Assembly (NCBI GenBank): GCA_017443895.1
Contig: JAFSXU010000033.1
Span: 1 to 64,000, forward strand
Direction of reading: 5' to 3'
Source: Clostridia bacterium
Lineage (GTDB): Bacteria > Bacillota > Clostridia > UBA1381
DNA: 64,000 nt
Shown here piece after piece: positions 1 to 52,101 of the stretch (within the stretch, counting starts at the first letter, position 1; each line of letters starts with the position of its first letter). Both the position numbers and the translations under genes were made by a program. The notes below the pieces were generated by a model. It was not told the origin of the DNA. It saw only the letters and a program-made list of their open reading frames with translations, and searched no databases.

Positions 1-65
1 CAGTTGGCTAGAGCACACGGTTCATACCCGTGGTGTCACTGGTTCAAGTCCAGTTACCGCCACCA
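1..65 (+). tRNA. tRNA-Met (CAT), 5' end outside window
   Basis: This is the 3' part of a tRNA. The anticodon stem CACGG/CCGTG encloses the 7-nt loop TTCATAC, giving anticodon CAT. The T arm is ACTGG-TTCAAGT-CCAGT at 38-54, the acceptor 3' strand is 55-61, and an encoded CCA ends at 65. The anticodon stem lacks the three consecutive G:C pairs of initiator tRNA, so an elongator tRNA-Met is most likely; a tRNA-Ile2 with a lysidine-modified CAT anticodon cannot be excluded. Its last two bases begin the 47-bp repeat that recurs at 49428. Confidence 0.93.
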
Positions 66-110
66 CATAAGAACAATGGAATTGATACAATTTCCGTTGT
101 TCTTTTTTTG
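64..110. repeat. 47-bp direct repeat, left copy (candidate attL)
   Basis: The 47 bases from 64 to 110 are identical to 49428-49474 in the same orientation. They cover the last two tRNA bases and the whole terminator hairpin. Sequence on either side of the two copies is unrelated. A long exact repeat at a tRNA 3' end with a recombinase remnant just inside is the usual signature of an integrated island. A transposed terminator is the alternative. Confidence 0.7.
66..109 (+). terminator. Rho-independent terminator of tRNA-Met
   Basis: AAGAACAATGGAA at 69-81 pairs with TTCCGTTGTTCTT at 92-104 with one G:T wobble. The stem runs into seven T residues ending at 109. It lies directly behind the tRNA and is part of the 47-bp segment duplicated at 49428-49474. 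Confidence 0.85.
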
Positions 111-1613: not shown

Positions 1614-1648
1614 AATGAAAAATATTCAATAAAAGGGGAATGATTATT

Positions 1649-3124
1649 ATGTATATGAAAAGCACTTTAGATGTAAAACTAAGAATTAAACCGGTTCAGA
1701 CAAGCTTTCTTCATCATACAAGTTATGAAGGCGTTTGTAGAACGGGTGCACCTGAGCAGCTTACGCTTGAATATGACAAAGCTCTTGGAATGGAAGAATT
1801 TATGCAGGTTCAAAGTGAGCTAAAAACTTTAAACGGTGATGAGTTTGAGGTTATGGAGCCGACACATATTCCGGTGTATGACGATTTCATGGCATCAAGG
1901 GAGACTATTGACAAACTGTGTGATGAAGTATCACCACAGGATTTACTTGTATTCTCAGGATTGCTATCGCAGCATCCAATGACCAAATATGCTATGCGAT
2001 ATTCAAACCCTGTTGCAATGTATAATGGCTGGCATGTAGACGGAACTTCTTTTTTGAGGTCAATAGGCAGAGAATGTGAGGGATTTTACCGTTTTGAAGA
2101 TTTGAAAAAATGGGCACAGTTATTAAGAACAAAAAAAGCAATCAGCTATATAAAGGTGCTCCTTGTAGAGAAGGGCGGACATCTTAAAGTGGGACTAAAG
2201 AGTAGTATATACGATTTGGTTGGTCTTGAAAAAAATCTGGGAGTTGAGTTTGTAACCTTGACCTCCGATGAAGTTTTGGCGATGTATGACACAATGCCTC
2301 AAGATCATCCTGACTGGGTTGAAGAAGCAAAGAAAAAAGCGGCTGAGCTTGCTAAAGGCGCTGTTTACAACAATTTATCGAAAGATTACTTATTGCGTTC
2401 CACTATGTTCTATGTGCTTATCAAAAAGCTATTGGAAAAGTATGAGTGCAATGCGTTTTCAATGCCTTGCAGAGAGGTTTGCGCAGGCGGAACGCTGATG
2501 GATAGAAAATTTGTATTCTGTTTAACTCATTCGCTCTTGAAGGACGAGGGAATTGTAAGTGCTTGTGAGGGCGATCTTGCCGCAATGATGGGAATTGCAG
2601 TATTGATGAATATTTCCAGAAAGGCACCTCATATGGGTAATAATCTTTTAGACAGCTTTGAAAGCAGAGTTGCAACTGTTCATCATAATGTGCCTTGTGT
2701 ACATATGGACGGTTATGATAAGAGCTTGCCGTATGCGTTAGCGTCCTTTACAGTAGCGGGCTGGGGAGCATCAATGAGATATGATTTTTCGGTTAATGTT
2801 GGTGATAAAATCACATTATTGCGTTTTGATCCGTCAGGAACGAAAATGATGGCTGTAAGAGGAACAATCGTGTCAGGTGATAAGTATTCGTCAATGACGG
2901 AGAGCGCAATGCATGCAGCAGTTGCAGGCGATTTGGCTGAAGATAATGAGACTTATACAAAGCCCGGTTGTGCAATGATGGTAAAATATCAAATTGATGA
3001 TGCAAAGAAATTCTATGAAAAGGAGAAAGATTATGGGCACCATTTTGCACTGGTATTCGGTGATTATGTGGACGATTTAAGAGAACTTGCGAAGGTTATG
3101 CATTTGGGATTTGCTGAGGCGTAA
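1649..3124 (+). CDS. L-fucose/L-arabinose isomerase-fold sugar isomerase-like protein
   Basis: A cytoplasmic protein of about 491 residues with no signal peptide. The C-terminal half carries the ACEGDLAAMMGI segment (near residues 305-315) and a later VHHN/VHMDG region. These resemble the metal-binding Glu, Asp and His positions of the FucI/AraA isomerase fold. Such enzymes interconvert aldoses and ketoses using a divalent metal, but many relatives have no known substrate, so the reaction is not assigned. ATG 1649 is chosen because the GGGG ribosome site at 1635-1638 is well spaced for it; ATG 1640 lies almost on top of that site. It leads an operon with a carrier-like protein, SufS and SufE. 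A second FucI-like gene lies at 47216. Confidence 0.7.
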   Translation: MYMKSTLDVKLRIKPVQTSFLHHTSYEGVCRTGAPEQLTLEYDKALGMEEFMQVQSELKTLNGDEFEVMEPTHIPVYDDFMASRETIDKLCDEVSPQDLLVFSGLLSQHPMTKYAMRYSNPVAMYNGWHVDGTSFLRSIGRECEGFYRFEDLKKWAQLLRTKKAISYIKVLLVEKGGHLKVGLKSSIYDLVGLEKNLGVEFVTLTSDEVLAMYDTMPQDHPDWVEEAKKKAAELAKGAVYNNLSKDYLLRSTMFYVLIKKLLEKYECNAFSMPCREVCAGGTLMDRKFVFCLTHSLLKDEGIVSACEGDLAAMMGIAVLMNISRKAPHMGNNLLDSFESRVATVHHNVPCVHMDGYDKSLPYALASFTVAGWGASMRYDFSVNVGDKITLLRFDPSGTKMMAVRGTIVSGDKYSSMTESAMHAAVAGDLAEDNETYTKPGCAMMVKYQIDDAKKFYEKEKDYGHHFALVFGDYVDDLRELAKVMHLGFAEA

Positions 3125-3126
3125 TT

Positions 3127-3537
3127 GTGGGTTTTAAAGATGAGTTTCTAAATTCGACAAAAAAAGCTAAAGAATATATGAACAAGATGCAGAATGGCGA
3201 TTATAACTGTGTAGAAGATTTTACATGTTTGCTTCGAGGCTATATTCTTAAAAAGTTTTTGCTGGATGAAAACTGCACGGCAGATAAAATTTCAGACTTG
3301 CTTGATGAAAGTATAAAGAAGATTCTGATACTTACAAATGAAGAAGGGTTTGATATGAGTGATAACCCTACCTGTACGGGTTCATCTTCTAAGATTGAGA
3401 AAAAGCTACTGATGTTAGTCAAGTTAAAGAAAGATCTTGGACTTGAAATAGGGATTGATGAATTGGTATTTTACGGTACTGTTACAGAACTCTCAGAAAA
3501 GATTTATGAACTGTTGGAAAGTATGGGGGAGAGGTAG
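3127..3537 (+). CDS. Small acidic protein, acyl-carrier-like C-terminal half (function unknown)
   Basis: A 136-residue helical protein starting with GTG two bases after the upstream stop. I do not recognise the family with certainty. The C-terminal 55 residues read GSSSKIEKKLLMLVKLKKDL, then LEIGIDEL and TVTELSEKIYELL. This follows the helix and loop spacing of acyl carrier proteins, with GSSS where the phosphopantetheine serine motif DSL would be. Four cysteines lie in the N-terminal 90 residues. Tight coupling to the upstream isomerase and to SufS/SufE suggests it could be a carrier or sulfur acceptor; that is inference. A terminator-like hairpin overlaps its stop codon. Confidence 0.6.
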   Translation: MGFKDEFLNSTKKAKEYMNKMQNGDYNCVEDFTCLLRGYILKKFLLDENCTADKISDLLDESIKKILILTNEEGFDMSDNPTCTGSSSKIEKKLLMLVKLKKDLGLEIGIDELVFYGTVTELSEKIYELLESMGER

Positions 3538-3556
3538 AAAATAATTCTACCTCTTT
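3529..3556 (+). terminator. Terminator-like hairpin between carrier-like gene and sufS
   Basis: AGAGGTAGAA at 3530-3539 pairs with TTCTACCTCT at 3544-3553, followed by further T residues. It overlaps the stop codon of the upstream gene. No promoter is evident in the 38 bases before sufS, so it more likely reduces sufS/sufE expression than ends the operon completely. Confidence 0.6.
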
Positions 3557-3594
3557 TCGCAATGAAGACTTTAATATTGCATTGGTGAAGGATT

Positions 3595-4827
3595 ATGAAA
3601 AAAATATTTTATGATTACAACAAAACCAGAAATGAGTTTCCGTTTTTAAATGAAAAAATATACGGAAAAGAACTAATATATTTTGATAATGCCGCTACAA
3701 CGCAAAAGCCGTTATGTGTGCTAAATGCCATTAGAGATACATATATCAAATCCAATGGAAATGTGCATAGAGGCAATCATTATCTTAGCAATATCGCAAC
3801 ACAAACTTTTGAAAATGCAAGGGAGACGGTAAAAAAATTTCTTAATGCAAGATCGGAGTGTGAGATTGTGTTTACAAAAGGTGCTACCGATAGCATAAAT
3901 TTAGTAGCCTCAACTTATGGTAGACAGTTTATATGTGAGGGTGATGATGTAATAGTAGGTCAAGGTGAACACCATTCAAATTTTTTGCCATGGCAAGAGT
4001 TATGTAAGGAGAAAAAAGCAAAATTCACTGTATTGCCATTAAATAAAGATGGTACAATTTCTCTAAAGCTACTTTCTCAGATGATAACAGAAAGAACAAA
4101 AATTGTGGCTGTATCTCATATTTCAAATGTAGTAGGTTGCTGTAATGATATAAAAGCGATTGCAGATATATGTCATAGCAGGAATATAGCACTTATTGTA
4201 GACGGTGCGCAGGCAGTTGCACATATCGGAGTAGATGTTCAAAAGCTCGACTGTGATTTTTATTGCTTTTCGGGACACAAAGTATATGGACCGACAGGGA
4301 TAGGTGTTCTTTACGGAAAACAAGAGATTCTTTCAATTGTACAACCGTTTGAATTTGGCGGTGAAATGGTAGACAGGGTAGAGTTTGATACAAGCACTTT
4401 TGCCGATTTACCTTTCCGGCTTGAGGCGGGAACTCCCAATTATGTAGGAGCAATTGCACTTGCTGAGGCTATACAGTTTGTAGAGCGAATAGGAATTGAT
4501 TTAATTTCTGAATATGAGGAAAGTCTTGTTGGATATATATGTGAAAATATATCTAAAACAGATGGTATTATACTATACGGAGATTATAATAACTCCAAGG
4601 GAATTATATCATTTAACTTAGATAATGCCGACGCATTTGACATAGGAAAGCTTTTGGATATTAACGGGATAGAGGTTCGAGCGGGAAGCCATTGTGCGCA
4701 ACCGATGATGAAACATTTAAATGTGGAAAAAACAGTCCGATTATCTTTTGGGTGCTACAATACGGTAAGTGAAATTGATTTGTTTTTAAATAAATTCGAG
4801 CAGATTGCTCACTTATTGCGAGGATAA
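3595..4827 (+). CDS. sufS: Cysteine desulfurase, SufS/CsdA type (group II)
   Basis: A PLP-dependent enzyme taking sulfur from L-cysteine to form an enzyme persulfide and alanine. At 410 residues it is full length for the family. Visible features are the N-terminal YFDNAATTQKP, the PLP-stacking histidine in GEHHSN (~126), Asp203 in IVDGAQA, the Schiff-base lysine 229 in FSGHKVYGPTG, and the catalytic Cys367 in RAGSHCAQP. It is followed after one base by sufE, its usual sulfur acceptor. The SufBCD scaffold genes are absent, so this pair probably serves a dedicated sulfur-transfer role in this operon rather than general Fe-S assembly; that is inference. Confidence 0.92.
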   Translation: MKKIFYDYNKTRNEFPFLNEKIYGKELIYFDNAATTQKPLCVLNAIRDTYIKSNGNVHRGNHYLSNIATQTFENARETVKKFLNARSECEIVFTKGATDSINLVASTYGRQFICEGDDVIVGQGEHHSNFLPWQELCKEKKAKFTVLPLNKDGTISLKLLSQMITERTKIVAVSHISNVVGCCNDIKAIADICHSRNIALIVDGAQAVAHIGVDVQKLDCDFYCFSGHKVYGPTGIGVLYGKQEILSIVQPFEFGGEMVDRVEFDTSTFADLPFRLEAGTPNYVGAIALAEAIQFVERIGIDLISEYEESLVGYICENISKTDGIILYGDYNNSKGIISFNLDNADAFDIGKLLDINGIEVRAGSHCAQPMMKHLNVEKTVRLSFGCYNTVSEIDLFLNKFEQIAHLLRG

Positions 4828-4828
4828 A

Positions 4829-5251
4829 ATGATGAAAAAGTCTATTAAAGAAATACAAGACGAGCTTATAATTGAATTCAGTGAATTTGATGACTGGGTT
4901 GATAAATATACCTTAATTATGTCATATTCGGCAGAGCTTGAAAAGATGCTTTATGAATATAAGACAGATGATATATTGTTTAAAGATTGTGCATCAAAGG
5001 TTTGGATTTTGATTGAGTGTAAAGATAACAAAGTGTGTTTTTTTGCTGATAGCGATTCGATGATAATAAGGGGAATTCTTGCAATCTTACAGAAAATATT
5101 AAATGATCAGGATGCAACGGAGGTTGTGGACGGCGACATATTTTTCATGAAAGAGATAGGTATGGAGTTGAATATGCCGATTGAAAGGAGCAAGGGTATT
5201 AAATCTATCATAGCCTATATAAAAAATGAGGCAAGGGAGCAATGTTTTTAA
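4829..5251 (+). CDS. sufE: SufE-type sulfur acceptor
   Basis: A 140-residue SufE-family protein that accepts persulfide sulfur from SufS and stimulates it. The acceptor cysteine is Cys54 in KDCASKVW, followed by ADSDSMIIRGILAIL, the family core. The start is ATG 4829 (a second ATG follows at 4832), preceded by GCGAGG and one base after the sufS stop. An upstream TTG at 4805 would extend into sufS and is unlikely. The proteins are probably co-translated. Confidence 0.88.
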   Translation: MMKKSIKEIQDELIIEFSEFDDWVDKYTLIMSYSAELEKMLYEYKTDDILFKDCASKVWILIECKDNKVCFFADSDSMIIRGILAILQKILNDQDATEVVDGDIFFMKEIGMELNMPIERSKGIKSIIAYIKNEAREQCF

Positions 5252-5381: not shown

Positions 5382-6314
5382 ATGAGCAAGCAGACAAAGC
5401 CCAAATATGAAGTTTGTGTTATTACTGAAAAGACAAAAGAGGATCCGATATTTAAATTCATTTCCAAGCTCAAATTTTTTTTAAACGGTATTGGACATCA
5501 ATATGGAAACGATATGCAAAATACCTGTGATTATCGTATAAGTTCAGACTTTGAGCTTATTTTTGTGGAGGGCGGTCAAAATCAAATTGAGATTGACGGT
5601 GTAATACATAACGGAAATCCCGGGGATATTTTTGTGATCCCACCATTCTCAAAGAACAAAATTCAGACAACGAAGGAAAATCCACACGATAATTATTGGA
5701 TACATTTCAGTATGGACCCGTTTTGCTATAATGAGGTATTTTTAAACCTGTTGCTAACGGAGCGTGGAAACTATTGCATTAAGTCAGAGTCTTTTCAAAG
5801 CTGTATTATGCTGTTAAAGCGAATAGAAGAAGAAATGAATGAAATGCAACCCGGATATAAAGTTATAAGAGAAGGATATTTCCGTACAATACTGGCTCTT
5901 TTAATTCGTGAGAATATCAAGAAATCAGACACAATTACTTTTCCGTCGGTTTCAAAGGCGCAGCGGCGTAACTTGGAGCTAATCATGAAATATGTTGATG
6001 AACATCTGAATCAAAGTATTACTGTTCAGGACATTGCAGAACATGTGCACTTGTCTGTTTCGTATATTTTCAGGATATTTCAGGATAATATCAATTGTTC
6101 GCCCAACCGTTATATTCGTGTTCAAAAGGCTATGATGGCAAAAATATATATGGAAACATCTCAAATGACACTTTATGAAATATCCAAAGAGCTGGGGTTT
6201 TTAAACTACTCCTATTTTAGCAAGCTTTTTAAAGATATTTATGGTGTATCACCGAAAGGCTTTATTGACAGACATCCAATCGTACAGAATAATTGCAACG
6301 GTAAAGAAGAATAG
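5382..6314 (+). CDS. AraC-family regulator with N-terminal cupin sensor
   Basis: A 310-residue transcription regulator. Residues ~45-115 form a cupin-like sensing half (FELIFVEGGQNQIEIDG, GDIFVIPPFSKNKIQ). Residues ~205-305 form the double helix-turn-helix of the AraC/XylS family, with ITVQDIAEHVHLSVSYIFRI for the first and LYEISKELGFLNYSYFSKLF for the second, ending in the family tail KDIYGVSPKGF. It has its own promoter and follows the FucI-like/SufS/SufE genes, so it probably responds to a sugar-type ligand and controls that operon, itself, or the large cluster to the right. The GAGGGGAG ribosome site before 5382 supports the start. Confidence 0.88.
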   Translation: MSKQTKPKYEVCVITEKTKEDPIFKFISKLKFFLNGIGHQYGNDMQNTCDYRISSDFELIFVEGGQNQIEIDGVIHNGNPGDIFVIPPFSKNKIQTTKENPHDNYWIHFSMDPFCYNEVFLNLLLTERGNYCIKSESFQSCIMLLKRIEEEMNEMQPGYKVIREGYFRTILALLIRENIKKSDTITFPSVSKAQRRNLELIMKYVDEHLNQSITVQDIAEHVHLSVSYIFRIFQDNINCSPNRYIRVQKAMMAKIYMETSQMTLYEISKELGFLNYSYFSKLFKDIYGVSPKGFIDRHPIVQNNCNGKEE

Positions 6315-22839: not shown

Positions 22840-24423
22840 ATGAAAAGAATAATTCTTGCATTGGTTATTATTATAACAACTATTACCGCAGCAGGCTGCG
22901 GAGGAAACAAAATTCAACAAGAATCCTCAATAAAAACGCCTGTCGGACAATATCCTGTTGAGTGTGACGACACACTTACATATTGGGTAGGCTATTCAGG
23001 ACTTGCGTCACAGGGAGTAAGCAATTTTAGTGAGCTGCCATACTTTGATTGGCTCAAGGAGGAAACGGGCATAAATGTTCAATATATCCACCCTGTTGTG
23101 GGGCAGGAAAATGAGCAGTTAAATATTATGCTTGCATCGGGAGAATACTACGACATAATCGAGCGTGACTTTTATAATTTCCAGGGTGGCCCCGAGGGCG
23201 CAATAAAAGACGGATATATCATCAGATTAAATGATGTAATAGACAAATATGCACCAAATTTAAAGGCATATCTTAAAAAACACCCTGAGATTGACAAAAT
23301 GGTAAAAACGGACGAGGGCAGTTATTATTGCTTCCCGTTTATAAGAGGCGATAAGCTGTTAAATACTTACCAGGGCCCTGTTATCAGAGAGGATTTACTG
23401 AAAAAGACAGGTCTTGATGTACCCGAAACGGTTGATGAGTGGGAAACTATGCTTCGTGCGTTTAAGGATATGGGTGTAAAGAAGCCATTTTCGGTTGCTT
23501 TCTCTAACTGGAATAAGAGTGCCATATTTATGGGTGCATATAACATAAGAAAAGGGTTTTATGTAGAAGACGGCGTGGTAAAATACGGCGAGTACGAGGA
23601 TTCGTATAAGGATTTCCTTACGAGAATGAATAAATGGTATAACGAGGGACTTTTAGACAGCGATATTGCCTCTGTTGACCAAAAAACTATAGACAGTAAA
23701 ATGGTTTCGGGAGATATAGCTACAACCGTTGCAAATACGATGAGCGGACTTGGCACATATGTTATGCCGGGTCGCAAGAATAACCCAGAATATAATCTTA
23801 TACCTGCACCGTATCCTGTTCTCAAGAAAGGCGACAAGTGTAATTTCTCACAAATGACACTTGCCTATAGTTCATTTGGAAGTCCTGCAATTACAACACA
23901 GTGTAAGAATGTGGAGCTTGCAGCAAGACTTTTGGATTACGGATACAGTGAAGAAGGACAGCTTATGATGAATTTCGGCCGAGAGGGCGAAAGCTATAAT
24001 ATGGTGGACGGATATCCAAGATATTCTGAAGTAATTATGAATAATAAGGACGGATTATCACCAAGTGAAGCCAAGAACTATTTCACATATCCGCCGGGCA
24101 GTGGTCCATATATTCAGGACAGGCGTGTTATGGAGCAAATGGCAATAACAGACGAGCAAAAGAGATCGCTTGAGATATGGGCTGATACAAATGCGGAGAA
24201 ATACTTATTACCGCCGATAACTCATACTGTTGAAGAAACTGAGGAGATTACATCTATACAGAATGATATAAACACATATGTAAATGAGATGTACTATAAA
24301 TTTATTGTAGGAGTAGAACCGCTTGATAGATTTGACGAGTATCAAAAGCAACTTGAAGCTCTTGGAATTAAAAAGCTGCTGGAGGTAAAACAGAATGCTT
24401 ACGAAAGATACATCAACAGGTAA
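22840..24423 (+). CDS. Extracellular solute-binding lipoprotein of the ABC importer
   Basis: A 527-residue lipoprotein. The signal peptide ends in the lipobox TAAGC, giving a lipidated cysteine at ~20 and membrane tethering outside the cell. The mature part is a family 1-type binding protein of the large LipO/YtcQ class (LTYWVGYSGLASQG, YPRYSEVIMNNKDGLSP). It delivers oligosaccharide to the two permeases just upstream. ATG 22840 follows AGAAAGGAA and gives the short signal peptide. Its 3' end overlaps the next gene by 29 bp, indicating translational coupling with the cytoplasmic lyase. Confidence 0.92.
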   Translation: MKRIILALVIIITTITAAGCGGNKIQQESSIKTPVGQYPVECDDTLTYWVGYSGLASQGVSNFSELPYFDWLKEETGINVQYIHPVVGQENEQLNIMLASGEYYDIIERDFYNFQGGPEGAIKDGYIIRLNDVIDKYAPNLKAYLKKHPEIDKMVKTDEGSYYCFPFIRGDKLLNTYQGPVIREDLLKKTGLDVPETVDEWETMLRAFKDMGVKKPFSVAFSNWNKSAIFMGAYNIRKGFYVEDGVVKYGEYEDSYKDFLTRMNKWYNEGLLDSDIASVDQKTIDSKMVSGDIATTVANTMSGLGTYVMPGRKNNPEYNLIPAPYPVLKKGDKCNFSQMTLAYSSFGSPAITTQCKNVELAARLLDYGYSEEGQLMMNFGREGESYNMVDGYPRYSEVIMNNKDGLSPSEAKNYFTYPPGSGPYIQDRRVMEQMAITDEQKRSLEIWADTNAEKYLLPPITHTVEETEEITSIQNDINTYVNEMYYKFIVGVEPLDRFDEYQKQLEALGIKKLLEVKQNAYERYINR

Positions 24424-26116
24424 GACACTGTTCAGAGAATGTTTTGATAAAAAACTATGGGAAAAAATCAGAACGGATAAAGCATATGAGAGCTTCAGAA
24501 ATAACTTGGACGATGCGTGGACACTCTCCACGCAAAAGCCAATTATGCCCCTGACCTTTGACTTGTTTATGATATGCCAAAACACAGGCTCAAGGTGGGA
24601 GTATGAGCAGGCATATTTTATAAGGCGGCTGGCACTAAACAGCAGTTTTATGTGCTTTATGATTTACGGCGATGAAAAATACCTAAAAAGGCTTGAAAAT
24701 GTAATTATGCTCATCTGCGATGAGTATACATGGGCTCTCCCGTGCCATGTTGGCGATGAAACTGACTGTGAAAAGTTAAGCACATATATTGAATTGTTTG
24801 CCGCAGAAACAGGGCACGCATTGAGTGAAATACTGTATATTCTCGGTGACAAGTTTGATAAGCGTGTTTCAAGCCGTATACGGTATGAGGTAAATCGAAG
24901 AATTATACATTCATTCCTCAACAATACTTTTCGCTTTGAAGAAATGAAGCTAAACTGGGCGGCGGTTTGCGGCGGCAGTGTAGGTATGACATATATATAC
25001 ATGGCACCTGAAAAATTTCCACTGGTTAAAGAGAGGATAAAGGCAAGTCTTATGAACTATCTTGAGTGCTTCGGTGATGACGGAGTATCGAGAGAAGGCT
25101 TGGGGTATTGGGTATACGGATTTGGATATTATCTATATTTTGAGGAATTATATAAAGATTTTTCGGGCGGTTATTTAATACCTCCGGGTAAAAAGCATAA
25201 GGAAATTGCGATGTTTTTCCAAAGAGCAAATATCGGCGGTGATTTGATGATAAGTTTTTCCGATACCGGTATTCATAACGCTTTATATCCGGGAATGATT
25301 TTTAAGCTTCATGATATATACGGTGACGATATTCACATATTGCCCAAGGATGCATACACGAAAAAAATCGTAACAGGTGATAATTGTTACAGATTTGCGC
25401 ATTGTATAAGGAATTTCCTTTGGTATAAGCCCGAAAAAATCCCCAAAGACGGTTTTTATGTAAAGGAAACCCTTTTCTTAAAGGACGCACAGTGGTACAT
25501 AAAAAGAAATGATAACTATGTATTTGCCACAAAAGGTGGCAATAATGATGAACCGCATAATCATAACGATGTGGGAAGCTTTATAATTTCCGATGGCAGG
25601 GAACAGCTTCTTGCCGATATTGGAAAGGGTAAATATACTCAGCAATATTTTGATTCAAAAACAAGATATCAATATTTGTGTTGTTCATCGCGGGGGCACA
25701 GCGTACCTATTATAAACGGACACGAACAGGTTGAGGGAAAAGAGTGCAGTGCAAAGATTTTAGAACACTCTGATGACCGTATCGTTATGGATATAGCAGC
25801 AGCGTATAATAATGAGGATATTATATCTGCAATAAGGCGCTTTGATTTTTCAGACAGCACTATTAGGCTAACAGACCAAATCAGCCTCAAAAATGGTACA
25901 CAATGGATTGACAGACTTGTAAGTACCATTGAGCCTGAGCTTGATGGAAATGTAGTTAAAATAGGCGGAATTAGTATATATAATAATCTTAATATTACGC
26001 CTGAAGTATCAAGTGAGGATATAGATGTACATGGGGTCGGGAACAAGCAAAGACGGATATATTTGATTGATTACAAAACAGAATTACAAAATATGGGATT
26101 TGAATTTAGGCTTTAA
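24395..26116 (+). CDS. Cytoplasmic heparinase II/III family protein, copy 1
   Basis: A 573-residue protein with no signal peptide. The N-terminal half is an alpha toroid (LNWAAVCGGSVGM with the family asparagine, ISFSDTGIHNAL). The C-terminal half is the heparinase II/III beta region with EPHNHNDVGSFIISDGREQL (histidines near 388-390). It presumably cleaves imported uronate oligosaccharides to unsaturated mono- or disaccharides by beta-elimination; substrate unknown. ATG 24395 follows GGAGG. The gene at 26204 is a near-duplicate. Coupling to the binding-protein gene fits action directly after import. Confidence 0.85.
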   Translation: MLTKDTSTGKTLFRECFDKKLWEKIRTDKAYESFRNNLDDAWTLSTQKPIMPLTFDLFMICQNTGSRWEYEQAYFIRRLALNSSFMCFMIYGDEKYLKRLENVIMLICDEYTWALPCHVGDETDCEKLSTYIELFAAETGHALSEILYILGDKFDKRVSSRIRYEVNRRIIHSFLNNTFRFEEMKLNWAAVCGGSVGMTYIYMAPEKFPLVKERIKASLMNYLECFGDDGVSREGLGYWVYGFGYYLYFEELYKDFSGGYLIPPGKKHKEIAMFFQRANIGGDLMISFSDTGIHNALYPGMIFKLHDIYGDDIHILPKDAYTKKIVTGDNCYRFAHCIRNFLWYKPEKIPKDGFYVKETLFLKDAQWYIKRNDNYVFATKGGNNDEPHNHNDVGSFIISDGREQLLADIGKGKYTQQYFDSKTRYQYLCCSSRGHSVPIINGHEQVEGKECSAKILEHSDDRIVMDIAAAYNNEDIISAIRRFDFSDSTIRLTDQISLKNGTQWIDRLVSTIEPELDGNVVKIGGISIYNNLNITPEVSSEDIDVHGVGNKQRRIYLIDYKTELQNMGFEFRL

Positions 26117-26203
26117 TTCAGCGATTGTAATATATCAAAAAGCATATATCTGAATAACCGTATAAAAAGCTTGAAACAAAAAGCCGGCGGAGGTAAAAAC
26201 AGA

Positions 26204-27928
26204 ATGCTTATGAAAGATACATCAGCGATAAAGACATTGTTTAAAGAAAGCAAGGATACAAGGCTATGGGAAAAAATCAGAAAGGATAAAGCATATGAGA
26301 GCTTCAGAAAAGACTTGGACGAGGGCTGGAATCTGTCAAATAAAGAGCCAATTATGCCCCTGACCTTTGATTTGTTTATGGTGTATATGAACACAGGATC
26401 AAGGTGGGAGTATGAGCAGGCATATTTTAGGAGACGGTTGGCACTCAACAGCAGTTTTATGTGCTTTATGATTTACGGTGATGAGAAATACCTAAAACGG
26501 CTTGAAAATGTAATAATGCTTATCTGTGATGAGTACACATGGGCACTTCCTGCCTGCGGCGTGGATACGGAGACCGATTGCGAAACGGTAAGTACATATA
26601 TAGAACTGTTTGCAGCCGAGACGGGACATGCGCTGAGTGAAATACTTTATATTCTCGGCGACAAGCTTAATAAGCATGTTTCAAGCCGTATACGGTATGA
26701 GGTAAACCGCAGGATTATAAATTCCTTCCTTAACAATACTTACCGCTTTGAAGAAATGAAGCTAAACTGGGCGGCGGTGTGCGGCGGGTGTGTAGGTATG
26801 ATATATATATATATGGCGCCTGAAAAGTTCCCATTGGTAAAGGCACGGATAAAAGCAAGCCTTGAAAATTATATTGATTGTTTCGGTGATGACGGTGTAT
26901 CAACCGAGGGCATTGGATACTGGGCATACGGGTTTGGATATTATCTATACTTTGAGGAGTTGCATAAGGAATTTTCAGGCAGTTATTTAATACCTCAGGG
27001 TAAAAAGCATAAGGAAATTGCAATGTTTTTCCAAAGAGCTAACATCAGCGGTGATTTGAGCGTAAGTTTTTCAGATACAGGCATTCATAACGCTATATCT
27101 CCCGCTATGGTTCTGAAACTTCATGATATATACGGCGAGGATATTCACATTTTACCAAAGGACGCATACACGAAAAAAGTTGTAACAGGAGGCGGTTGTT
27201 ACAGATTTGCCCATTGTATAAGGAATTTCCTGTGGTATAAGCCTGAAAGAATTCCAAAAGACGGGCATTATGTAAAAGAAACACTTTTCTTAAAAGATGC
27301 ACAGTGGTATATAAAAAAAGCCGATAACTATGCATTTGCCGCAAAGGGCGGCAATAATGCAGAGCCGCATAATCATAACGATGTGGGATGCTTTATAATT
27401 TCTGACCGAAAGGACCAGCTTCTTGCAGATGTCGGAATGGGCAAATATACACGGCAGTATTTCGATGAGGAAACAAGATACCAATATTTATGCTGTTCAT
27501 CAAGAGGGCACAGTGTACCGATTATCAACGGACATGAGCAGTGTGCGGGGAAAGAGTGTAAGGCAAAAATTTTAGAAGAGTCCGATACGCATCTCATTAT
27601 GGATATAGGTGCCGCTTATAATAATGATGATATTATATCTGTAATAAGACGATTTGATTTTTCAGACAGCACTGTTAAATTAGCGGATGAAATCAATCAA
27701 AAGCAAAATGCGCAATGGATTGACAGACTGATAAGTATTATTGAACCCGAACTTGACGGGAATGTAATTCAAATAGGCGGAATGAGGATATATAACAATC
27801 TTAGCATTGTGCCTGTAATATCAAGTGAGGATATAGATGTACATGGGGTCGAAAATAAGCAAAGACGGGTATATCTTATTGATTATAAGACAGAATTACA
27901 AAAAATAGAATTCAGTTTTGAATTTTAA
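26204..27928 (+). CDS. Cytoplasmic heparinase II/III family protein, copy 2 (tandem paralogue)
   Basis: A 574-residue paralogue of the preceding gene, collinear and highly similar over its whole length, including the start (MLMKDTSAIKTLF versus MLTKDTSTGKTLF). It keeps LNWAAVCGGCVGM and EPHNHNDVGCFIISDRKDQL. ATG 26204 is preferred over an in-frame start 33 bp upstream: GGAGG sits 11-14 bases before it and it matches the paralogue's start. The 87 bp between copies partly repeats the end of the preceding binding-protein region, as expected for an unequal tandem duplication. Differences near the active-site loops could alter specificity. Confidence 0.85.
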   Translation: MLMKDTSAIKTLFKESKDTRLWEKIRKDKAYESFRKDLDEGWNLSNKEPIMPLTFDLFMVYMNTGSRWEYEQAYFRRRLALNSSFMCFMIYGDEKYLKRLENVIMLICDEYTWALPACGVDTETDCETVSTYIELFAAETGHALSEILYILGDKLNKHVSSRIRYEVNRRIINSFLNNTYRFEEMKLNWAAVCGGCVGMIYIYMAPEKFPLVKARIKASLENYIDCFGDDGVSTEGIGYWAYGFGYYLYFEELHKEFSGSYLIPQGKKHKEIAMFFQRANISGDLSVSFSDTGIHNAISPAMVLKLHDIYGEDIHILPKDAYTKKVVTGGGCYRFAHCIRNFLWYKPERIPKDGHYVKETLFLKDAQWYIKKADNYAFAAKGGNNAEPHNHNDVGCFIISDRKDQLLADVGMGKYTRQYFDEETRYQYLCCSSRGHSVPIINGHEQCAGKECKAKILEESDTHLIMDIGAAYNNDDIISVIRRFDFSDSTVKLADEINQKQNAQWIDRLISIIEPELDGNVIQIGGMRIYNNLSIVPVISSEDIDVHGVENKQRRVYLIDYKTELQKIEFSFEF

Positions 27929-47215: not shown

Positions 47216-48496
47216 ATGGAAGCGGTAAAGGAGAATGGAAGGACAGGTGCTGTGATCGCATTGTTTTTTGCTACCAAATATTGGGGGAGCAAGGAGGAAA
47301 TACTGCCTGTTGCAGGTAAGATAAAGGAAACATTTTCACCTGTAAAAACAGTAACCGTAATTGACGGCGACCTTACGGAGCTTTTTAAAGGCAGTGAATG
47401 TGATACAATAGTAATTGTTCCGTGCAGCGGCTCGGTACAGCCTGATATTATAAAGGCATGTGCTGATTTTTCAAATAAGGTTATATTTGCACCGTATGTC
47501 GAGGGTAATTTTGACGCACAGACAACCGATAAAATACTCTATTGTAACGCGGCACCCACATTGATGGACACATACAGTGTTCTAAAAAGGACTGCGGATA
47601 TACGGCTTATTAAAACCACGACACAGCTAAAATCGTATCTTAAAGCACAGGAGGCGGTAAAAAAGATTAAGGGTGCAAGGATTGCAGTTATTGAGCAGCC
47701 TGAGCCATGGGTAATAAGTGTGGAGAAAGATTTGTCGGTTTATAATGATAAGACGGGCGTTAATATGGTAAAAATACCGCAAAGTGAGCTTATTGATATT
47801 TATAAGTCAATGGATAAGGACGAGGTAAAAGATATTTATGATTATTTTAAAAACGGAGCGGATCAGATTATTGAGCCTACTGATGAGGATTTACAAAACG
47901 CTTCAAAAATGGCAGGGGCGATGCTTAAAATAATCAGAAAATATAAGTGTATGGGAATGGCGATAGCTTGCTTTAATCTTATTACAAAAACAGGCATAAA
48001 CCCATGCCTGGGTGTAAGCTACATAAATGGCGAAACTCCGTATTTTGCAGCCTGCGAGGGAGATGTAGACAGTGCCGTGACAATGCTCTTTATCCGTGCC
48101 TTAACCGATGACGCTCCATGGATGGCAAACCCCAATCTGGGACAGGACGAAACAGTTAATTTTGTGCATTGCACAGCGCCTATAAAGGAGCATAAATACA
48201 TACTCCGAAGCCACCACGAAACAGGGATTGGGGCATCGCTTGATGTAAAGTATGATATAGGTGCAGATGTAAGCTTGTTCAGATACAGCGGTGTAGAGAA
48301 TAAAATGACAATAAACAGCGGTAAAACTGTGGCAGGGCGGTATGAGCCAAGCTGTCGGACACAGCTTCGCATAGCGCTTGATAATTACAAAGGCTATATA
48401 GAGAATGTTCTTGGCTGTCATCAGGTAATGTCGTTTGCTGATATTAAAGAGCAAATGCAGGAGCTTGCTATGATTTTGGGTATAGAAATAATCTGA
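47216..48496 (+). CDS. Second FucI/AraA-fold isomerase-like protein
   Basis: A 426-residue protein with the L-fucose isomerase-like fold. The C-terminal half has AACEGDVDSAVTMLFIRAL (Glu281, Asp283), NFVHCTAPI (His ~318) and RSHHETGIGASLD (~332-344), the positions that hold the metal and substrate in this family. It is shorter than classical FucI. It closes the OYE/SDR/FAD operon, AAAGGAG lying ahead of ATG 47216. It is only distantly similar to the protein at 1649, yet both share the ACEGD metal-site motif. Substrate unknown. Confidence 0.72.
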   Translation: MEAVKENGRTGAVIALFFATKYWGSKEEILPVAGKIKETFSPVKTVTVIDGDLTELFKGSECDTIVIVPCSGSVQPDIIKACADFSNKVIFAPYVEGNFDAQTTDKILYCNAAPTLMDTYSVLKRTADIRLIKTTTQLKSYLKAQEAVKKIKGARIAVIEQPEPWVISVEKDLSVYNDKTGVNMVKIPQSELIDIYKSMDKDEVKDIYDYFKNGADQIIEPTDEDLQNASKMAGAMLKIIRKYKCMGMAIACFNLITKTGINPCLGVSYINGETPYFAACEGDVDSAVTMLFIRALTDDAPWMANPNLGQDETVNFVHCTAPIKEHKYILRSHHETGIGASLDVKYDIGADVSLFRYSGVENKMTINSGKTVAGRYEPSCRTQLRIALDNYKGYIENVLGCHQVMSFADIKEQMQELAMILGIEII

Positions 48497-49427: not shown

Positions 49428-49474
49428 CACATAAGAACAATGGAATTGATACAATTTCCGTTGTTCTTTTTTTG
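49428..49474. repeat. 47-bp direct repeat, right copy (candidate attR)
   Basis: Identical to 64-110 over 47 bp, including the hairpin and the seven T residues. Here no tRNA precedes it. It lies 70 bp beyond the IS3 remnant and just before the IS200-type remnant, and core genes resume within 1 kb. It fits the right end of an island whose left end is the tRNA-Met. Confidence 0.7.
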
Positions 49475-51083: not shown

Positions 51084-51174
51084 ATGCCCACTTCATGGGC
51101 TAAAATACAGCTACACAACATCGTAATTCACAATGTATTGTTTCGCAAAATCACAAGAGGAGGAAAGTTTGATA

Positions 51175-52101
51175 ATGATAGTATACAGGGAGCTTTCCTC
51201 CTTGAGTGAGGATTTGGGAGTTTCTAAAAAGGCTTTATATACGGCAAGTAATCATGCATCATCGCACTATCGCAGAATAAAAATACCAAAAGGAAACGGA
51301 GAATTCAGAGAACTTGCCGTACCTGATAATTTTTTAAAATCAATCCAAAAGCGTATAGCTGACAAGTTGCTTATCTACGAAGAAATTTCAAAATATGCAA
51401 CTGCATACCGATACGGTGGATCTGTGGTGGCAAATGCAAAACCACACATAAAAAACGGCACTGTTTTAAAGGTTGATATAAGACATTTTTTTGATCATAT
51501 AATATATCCGATAGTTAAAGATAAGGCTTTTCCGGCATATAGATATTCAGAGCCTAACCGTATTATGCTTTCACTTATATGTCTGTATAAAGATACATTG
51601 CCGCAAGGTGCGCCAACATCGCCTGTAATTTCAAATATAATAATGAAGAATTTTGATGATTGTATAGGTCAATGGTGTGACAAAAAAGGCATCGTGTATA
51701 CGAGATATTGTGATGATTTGACTTTTTCGGGAAATATAATTCCAGGGGAAATTATTTGTTTTGTCAAACAGGAACTTGCAAAAATGGGCTTTTATCTTAA
51801 TAACAAAAAAACTGTTATCGCAAGGAATGGGCAAAGACAATTGATTACAGGCGTAGTAGTAAATGATAAGCTTAATATACCCTTGGATTACAGAAAAAAA
51901 CTCCGACAGGAATTATATTATTGTAAAAAATTCGGGGTTTCATCTCATTTGAGTAAAATAAATTCAGAGCAGAATGAAGAAAAATATCTGCAAAAGCTCT
52001 TGGGTAGGGTAAATTATGCGCTTATGATTGATAAGTCGAATGCTCAAATGAATGGCTACAGACAGTGGCTTGTAAATGAATTAAAAAAGTATAACGGTTA
52101 A
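51175..52101 (+). CDS. Retron-type reverse transcriptase
   Basis: A ~308-residue RNA-directed DNA polymerase. Motifs in order: ATAYRYGGSVVANAKPH with the retron NAxxH signature (87-91), LKVDIRHFFDHI (motif A aspartate ~101), TLPQGAPTSPVISNI (motif B), YTRYCDDLTFSG (YxDD, 178-181) and LITGVVVNDKLNIP with the retron TGxVVN signature (225-230). There is no maturase (X) or endonuclease domain, ruling out a group II intron protein. ATG 51175 or TTG 51169 follows GAGGAGG; the frame is open back to 51133. No effector gene is fused or adjacent downstream. Confidence 0.9.
   Translation: MIVYRELSSLSEDLGVSKKALYTASNHASSHYRRIKIPKGNGEFRELAVPDNFLKSIQKRIADKLLIYEEISKYATAYRYGGSVVANAKPHIKNGTVLKVDIRHFFDHIIYPIVKDKAFPAYRYSEPNRIMLSLICLYKDTLPQGAPTSPVISNIIMKNFDDCIGQWCDKKGIVYTRYCDDLTFSGNIIPGEIICFVKQELAKMGFYLNNKKTVIARNGQRQLITGVVVNDKLNIPLDYRKKLRQELYYCKKFGVSSHLSKINSEQNEEKYLQKLLGRVNYALMIDKSNAQMNGYRQWLVNELKKYNG

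Follow-up and report, generated by a model that had tools for sequence, protein, structure and literature searches.

In the 64,000-nucleotide stretch analysed here, called the window (positions 1-64,000, forward strand, of contig JAFSXU010000033.1 from a gut-type Clostridia bacterium of the UBA1381 lineage, assembly GCA_017443895.1), four genes encode a sugar isomerase-like enzyme, a small protein of 136 residues, the cysteine desulfurase SufS and its sulfur acceptor SufE. Our main finding is that the predicted isomerase subfamily is paired with an accessory cysteine desulfurase in two lineages, with a different type of desulfurase in each. We propose, at about even confidence, that the window carries an acquired accessory sulfur module in which the persulfide formed by SufS and SufE would serve the cysteine-rich isomerase-like enzyme; the transfer, its acceptor and its product are inferred. 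An original prediction had seen in the same genes one operon and a possible dedicated route delivering sulfur to a carrier or a sugar-derived metabolite. The accessory nature of SufSE, the lack of SufB/D and the pairing found in a second lineage speak for a dedicated route, whereas the carrier and a conserved set of four genes could not be upheld, and a specific four-gene pathway is not established.

The isomerase-like enzyme and its linked desulfurases

The products of sufS (3595-4827, plus strand, 410 residues) and sufE (4829-5251, plus strand, 140 residues) both score over the cut-offs of their families, SufS with 519.3 bits against NCBIfam TIGR01979 (cut-off 475.1) and SufE with 104.3 bits against Pfam PF02657 (cut-off 27). 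Compared with 80 other SufS sequences, SufS keeps 68 of 71 near-invariant residues, including K229, H126 and C367, which comprise the pyridoxal phosphate lysine and catalytic residues, C367 being the catalytic cysteine. SufE likewise retains its catalytic C54, and the flanking G53 and Q55, near-invariant among the 43 SufE sequences used for comparison, are changed to D and A. On these scores and alignments the two are bona fide family members with intact active-site residues, as had been predicted. A TTG start listed for sufE at 4805 would overlap sufS and the start at 4829 is preferred. SufS is of type II and lies nearest to Bacteroidota in a quick tree, on a very long branch (1.75) whose exact placement is unsure. 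Gram-positive SUF systems are described as lacking SufE (PMC8300815); in agreement, among 150 relatives and 398 genomes of the phylum we found SufE in the window genome only; a match in genome G466 was rejected as a chance match within a RelA-like gene.

The SufSE pair is accessory and not the cell's Fe-S (iron-sulfur) source, because the window genome (G000, completeness 99.5%) has no SufB/D, yet holds a housekeeping IscR-NifS-NifU locus at C28 and a NifS-ThiI locus at C20. The absence of a SufBCD scaffold, first remarked on for the locus, extends to the whole genome when tested as SufB/D (PF01458), which is present in 14 of 14 control genomes. Had SufS and SufE been the sole supplier of Fe-S sulfur and the small protein folded unlike a carrier, this would have spoken against the original prediction; with these loci elsewhere in the genome, they are not the sole supplier. 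An EF2568-type desulfurase, typed by alignment with the enzyme from the second lineage described below, stands beside a small open reading frame (ORF) at C46.

The isomerase-like gene (1640-3124, plus strand) encodes 494 residues which an alignment of 27 sequences places in the broad AraA/FucI-type superfamily (COG2407-like), with ~20% identity to the other members. A family profile run against the PDB gave AraA as its first match and FucI as its second, and the putative metal ligands E279, E310, H348 and H468 are kept at the aligned positions. The earlier label 'FucI-like' is valid for the superfamily but not for the family, since Fucose_iso_C reaches 13.9 bits, under its cut-off of 29.3. The best NCBIfam match is the sulfoquinovose isomerase SftI (NF048012), an identity that we rejected at 35.9 bits against a cut-off of 700. 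The enzyme appears to represent a divergent, cysteine-rich, new subfamily of the AraA/FucI superfamily, with predicted isomerase activity. The window also encodes a second, distant isomerase of the superfamily (47216-48496, plus strand) that shares 24% identity with the first one. Its gene closes a catabolic cluster which also codes for RraA-like, RpiB-like and GH88-like proteins, a flavin oxidoreductase and TIM-barrel enzymes. An AlphaFold model of the isomerase together with this paralog was too poor for use (predicted local distance difference test, pLDDT, 33).

A search of about 900 genomes for this subfamily returned one true relative, in a genome from another family of the same class (G718), which is 32% identical over nearly the full length (222 bits). 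In G718 the gene for an EF2568-type cysteine desulfurase lies 51 bp behind the isomerase gene, and directly after it comes an ORF of 103 residues (L144 7751-8062, minus strand), all on the same strand; the three stand in a series of genes for glycoside hydrolases, an FGGY sugar kinase and a second isomerase. The 103-residue ORF belongs to no family and has no similarity to the 136-residue protein of the window. The linked desulfurase scores 342.6 bits against TIGR01977, just below the cut-off of 377, and shares no more than 41% identity with any other found in 138 genomes. Because the same genome also has, at C29, a second EF2568-type desulfurase like the copies in most relatives, the isomerase-linked enzyme is by these comparisons a divergent accessory paralog.

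As a control, we inspected the surroundings of other isomerases of the superfamily, 42 neighbourhoods that mostly reach about 5 kb to either side, and found no desulfurase in them. The chance of meeting a desulfurase as direct neighbour is roughly 0.2% when estimated from how densely such genes occur (some 5 desulfurases among about 2500 genes), and the chance of the pairing is about 2% when taken from the control neighbourhoods (1 in 43). Since two lineages join this isomerase to accessory desulfurases of different subfamilies, the pairing of the isomerase subfamily with a dedicated desulfurase is probably functional, and a single inherited block is hard to accept as its explanation. The full set of four genes, whose recurrence the original prediction would have led one to expect, occurs in no other genome searched; pattern scans of genome and viral contigs with the isomerase, the small protein and SufS, and a plasmid search, turned up nothing related to the isomerase or the small protein.

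The two paired isomerases have more cysteines in common than their overall identity of 32% might suggest. Seven of the ten cysteines of the window enzyme (33, 270, 277, 281, 294, 309 and 444) are conserved in its relative. C33 and C281 appear in no other row of the superfamily alignment, while C277, C294 and C309 are present in every one of the 27 isomerases aligned and missing from AraA. In the alignment with AraA, C277 and C309 fall within two residues of metal-ligand positions.

A proposed sulfur-dependent enzyme and the competing explanations

Judging from their conserved residues, SufS would mobilise the sulfur of cysteine in persulfide form, to be carried by SufE on its Cys54. The persulfide would then be passed to the isomerase-like enzyme rather than to SufBCD, where it would most likely build or maintain a persulfide or an Fe-S/metal-thiolate centre on the conserved cysteine cluster beside the metal site. 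Less likely, the sulfur would be added to a keto-sugar made by the isomerase-like enzyme. We favour an enzyme-bound sulfur centre over a sugar product because both loci have catabolic surroundings, lying among glycan-degradation genes which in the window include heparinase-like and other catabolic enzymes. A more general proposal, which we advance tentatively and at less than even confidence, is that of a sulfur-dependent sugar processing in which the cysteine-rich isomerase-like enzyme would need persulfide for its activity or its product, different desulfurase subfamilies (SufS-SufE, EF2568 type) having been recruited in each lineage. Such a system would be an undescribed sulfur-dependent isomerase or thiosugar-forming enzyme. 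We found no described isomerase-desulfurase system in the literature, in agreement with the earlier remark that no pathway with this set was known.

As a rule, cysteine desulfurases are taken to serve Fe-S clusters, the thiolation of tRNA or cofactors. If the proposal of a persulfide-served isomerase is true, desulfurase chemistry would gain a new client in the isomerase-like enzyme of glycan-use loci, and the two to four genes concerned would offer a small, testable system for sulfur-dependent sugar metabolism. It would also draw attention to the invariant cysteines of the COG2407-like isomerase family.

Several observations weigh against this proposal. An RNA hairpin at 3526-3558 parts the isomerase and small-protein genes from sufS and sufE, and the sulfur acceptor is inferred only. 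The pairing is seen in just two genomes, one of which is the starting observation, and these two have neither the type of desulfurase, nor the small protein, nor SufE in common. C277, C294 and C309 cannot by themselves explain the pairing because they are invariant across a superfamily most of whose members have no linked desulfurase. Finally, the region resembles an island, in which unrelated genes may be neighbours.

This last point leads to the alternative that survives best, namely that the isomerase and SufSE have no functional link and travel independently of each other's function on one island, where SufSE would be a spare supply for Fe-S or stress needs. A tRNA truncated by the contig edge opens the window (1-62) and is directly followed by the left copy (64-110, plus strand) of a 47-bp perfect direct repeat whose right copy lies at 49428-49474 (plus strand). 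The two copies bracket 49.4 kb holding the whole glycan-use region and the four-gene block, and the isomerase gene is preceded, at a distance of about 155 bp, by a truncated serine recombinase remnant (PF07508; 856-1485, minus strand). This 49-kb segment looks like an acquired genomic island; alternatively, the repeat could be a shared terminator sequence rather than the island boundaries, as it folds into a terminator-like hairpin. A coincidental neighbourhood would suit these features, the hairpin between the two gene pairs and a four-gene set that is unique so far. We nevertheless consider it unlikely, given that G718 independently joins its isomerase to another accessory desulfurase and none of the 42 controls has one, and given the low probability of such direct neighbours by either estimate (roughly 0.2% or about 2%).

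Less probable still, and in our view improbable, is the formation of a thiosugar, in which the isomerase-like enzyme would open or tautomerise a sugar to its keto or enediol form and the sulfur borne by SufE would be added to it. The association of an isomerase with a dedicated persulfide donor in two lineages and the retention of the putative metal ligands would be in line with such chemistry. However, both neighbourhoods look catabolic, that of G718 for its glycoside hydrolases and sugar kinase and that of the window for its heparinase-like and other catabolic enzymes, and no gene for a ThiS/MoaD-type carrier, an E1-like protein or a glycosyltransferase was recognised beside either pair. The delivery of sulfur to a sugar-derived metabolite, envisaged in the original prediction, stays hypothetical.

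The small-protein gene (3127-3537, plus strand, GTG start) had been described as encoding a protein shaped like an acyl carrier. Its product has no Pfam match at E ≤ 1 (only a chance match to Spectrin_3, E 1.3), no NCBIfam and no PHROG family; the profile search gave no match to carrier families, including PF00550 (PP-binding), and the DSL motif with the attachment serine of acyl carrier proteins is absent. Its alignment score with AcpP of E. coli is 32, compared with a mean of 28.6 for shuffled sequences, of which 241 in 1000 reach as high a score. The single-sequence AlphaFold model of this charged protein with four cysteines is all-helical and unusable (pLDDT 49). Among 150 related genomes the search gave nothing above chance level; matches in three of them (E about 0.005, 17-18 bits, inside much longer frames) were discarded. 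Our analysis leaves the protein an orphan, its reading as a carrier not supported. That SufE passes sulfur to its cysteines or to a phosphopantetheine is very improbable: the protein is small, charged, predicted to be helical and encoded right behind the isomerase, but it matches no carrier family, resembles AcpP no better than shuffled sequences do, and has neither relatives nor a sequence counterpart in G718.

Transcription unit and neighbouring genes

The four ORFs lie on the same strand where they had been predicted, with 2 bp between the isomerase and small-protein genes, 1 bp between sufS and sufE, and a gap of 57 bp between the two pairs. A single transcript over all four is plausible but uncertain, because the hairpin sits between the pairs. 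This terminator- or attenuator-like structure (plus strand, z -3.2) overlaps the end of the small-protein gene and is followed by UUUU; with four T only it falls under the threshold of the terminator scan and is absent from the list that the scan produced. The predicted operon is thus correct in its genes and their orientation and uncertain as one unit, just as the predicted gene names stand for SufS, SufE and, at superfamily level, the isomerase, but not for the 'carrier'. The GC content of the block (0.32-0.40) is close to that of neighbouring sequence and, judged from this, there is no sign of a chimeric contig end.

About 130 bp 3′ of sufE follows a gene for an AraC-family regulator (5382-6314, plus strand) with a promoter-like site of its own, and whether it is part of the four-gene unit is uncertain. 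Two tandem heparinase-like paralogs at 24361-27928, with stretches 81-83% identical in DNA, likely represent a recent duplication. Just beyond the right copy of the repeat, a reverse transcriptase gene (51133-52101, plus strand) matches the PADLOC retron model RT_Ec107-like (6e-125).

Comparison with known systems

The adjacent SufS (TIGR01979) and SufE (PF02657) with their catalytic residues kept, and the order sufS-sufE, also seen in many Bacteroidota loci, are those of SUF systems. The window pair differs from them in that its genome lacks SufBCD (tested as SufB/D), the motif around the catalytic cysteine of SufE is altered, and the pair is joined to an isomerase-like gene. As an accessory desulfurase of type II that has a SufE-like acceptor to itself and stands away from the main Fe-S operon, it is reminiscent of CsdA-CsdE of E. 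coli, which also serve the formation of ct6A (PMC8300815). In contrast, the window proteins score far under the cut-offs of these families (CsdA 370 versus 493.6 bits, CsdE 66 versus 136.4 bits) and there is no tcdA-like gene among the four.

On the sugar side, SftI belongs to the same superfamily and is the best NCBIfam match of the isomerase, but the match reaches 35.9 of 700 bits and no transaldolase or other sulfo-sugar genes were recognised in the stretches scanned. The synthesis of 2-thiosugars by BexX uses ThiS-type carriers. A thiosugar-forming isomerase would resemble this route in joining keto-sugar chemistry with protein-borne sulfur and would differ from it in having SufE as the donor; no ThiG-like, ThiS-like or E1-like gene was recognised at the window locus. 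AraA and FucI are also comparable, in that the superfamily profile finds both structures and the metal-ligand positions E, E, H and H align. Besides its identity of about 20% to other family members, it is the cysteines that set the window isomerase apart, both the invariant ones by the metal-ligand positions, which AraA lacks, and the additional ones of its own subfamily.

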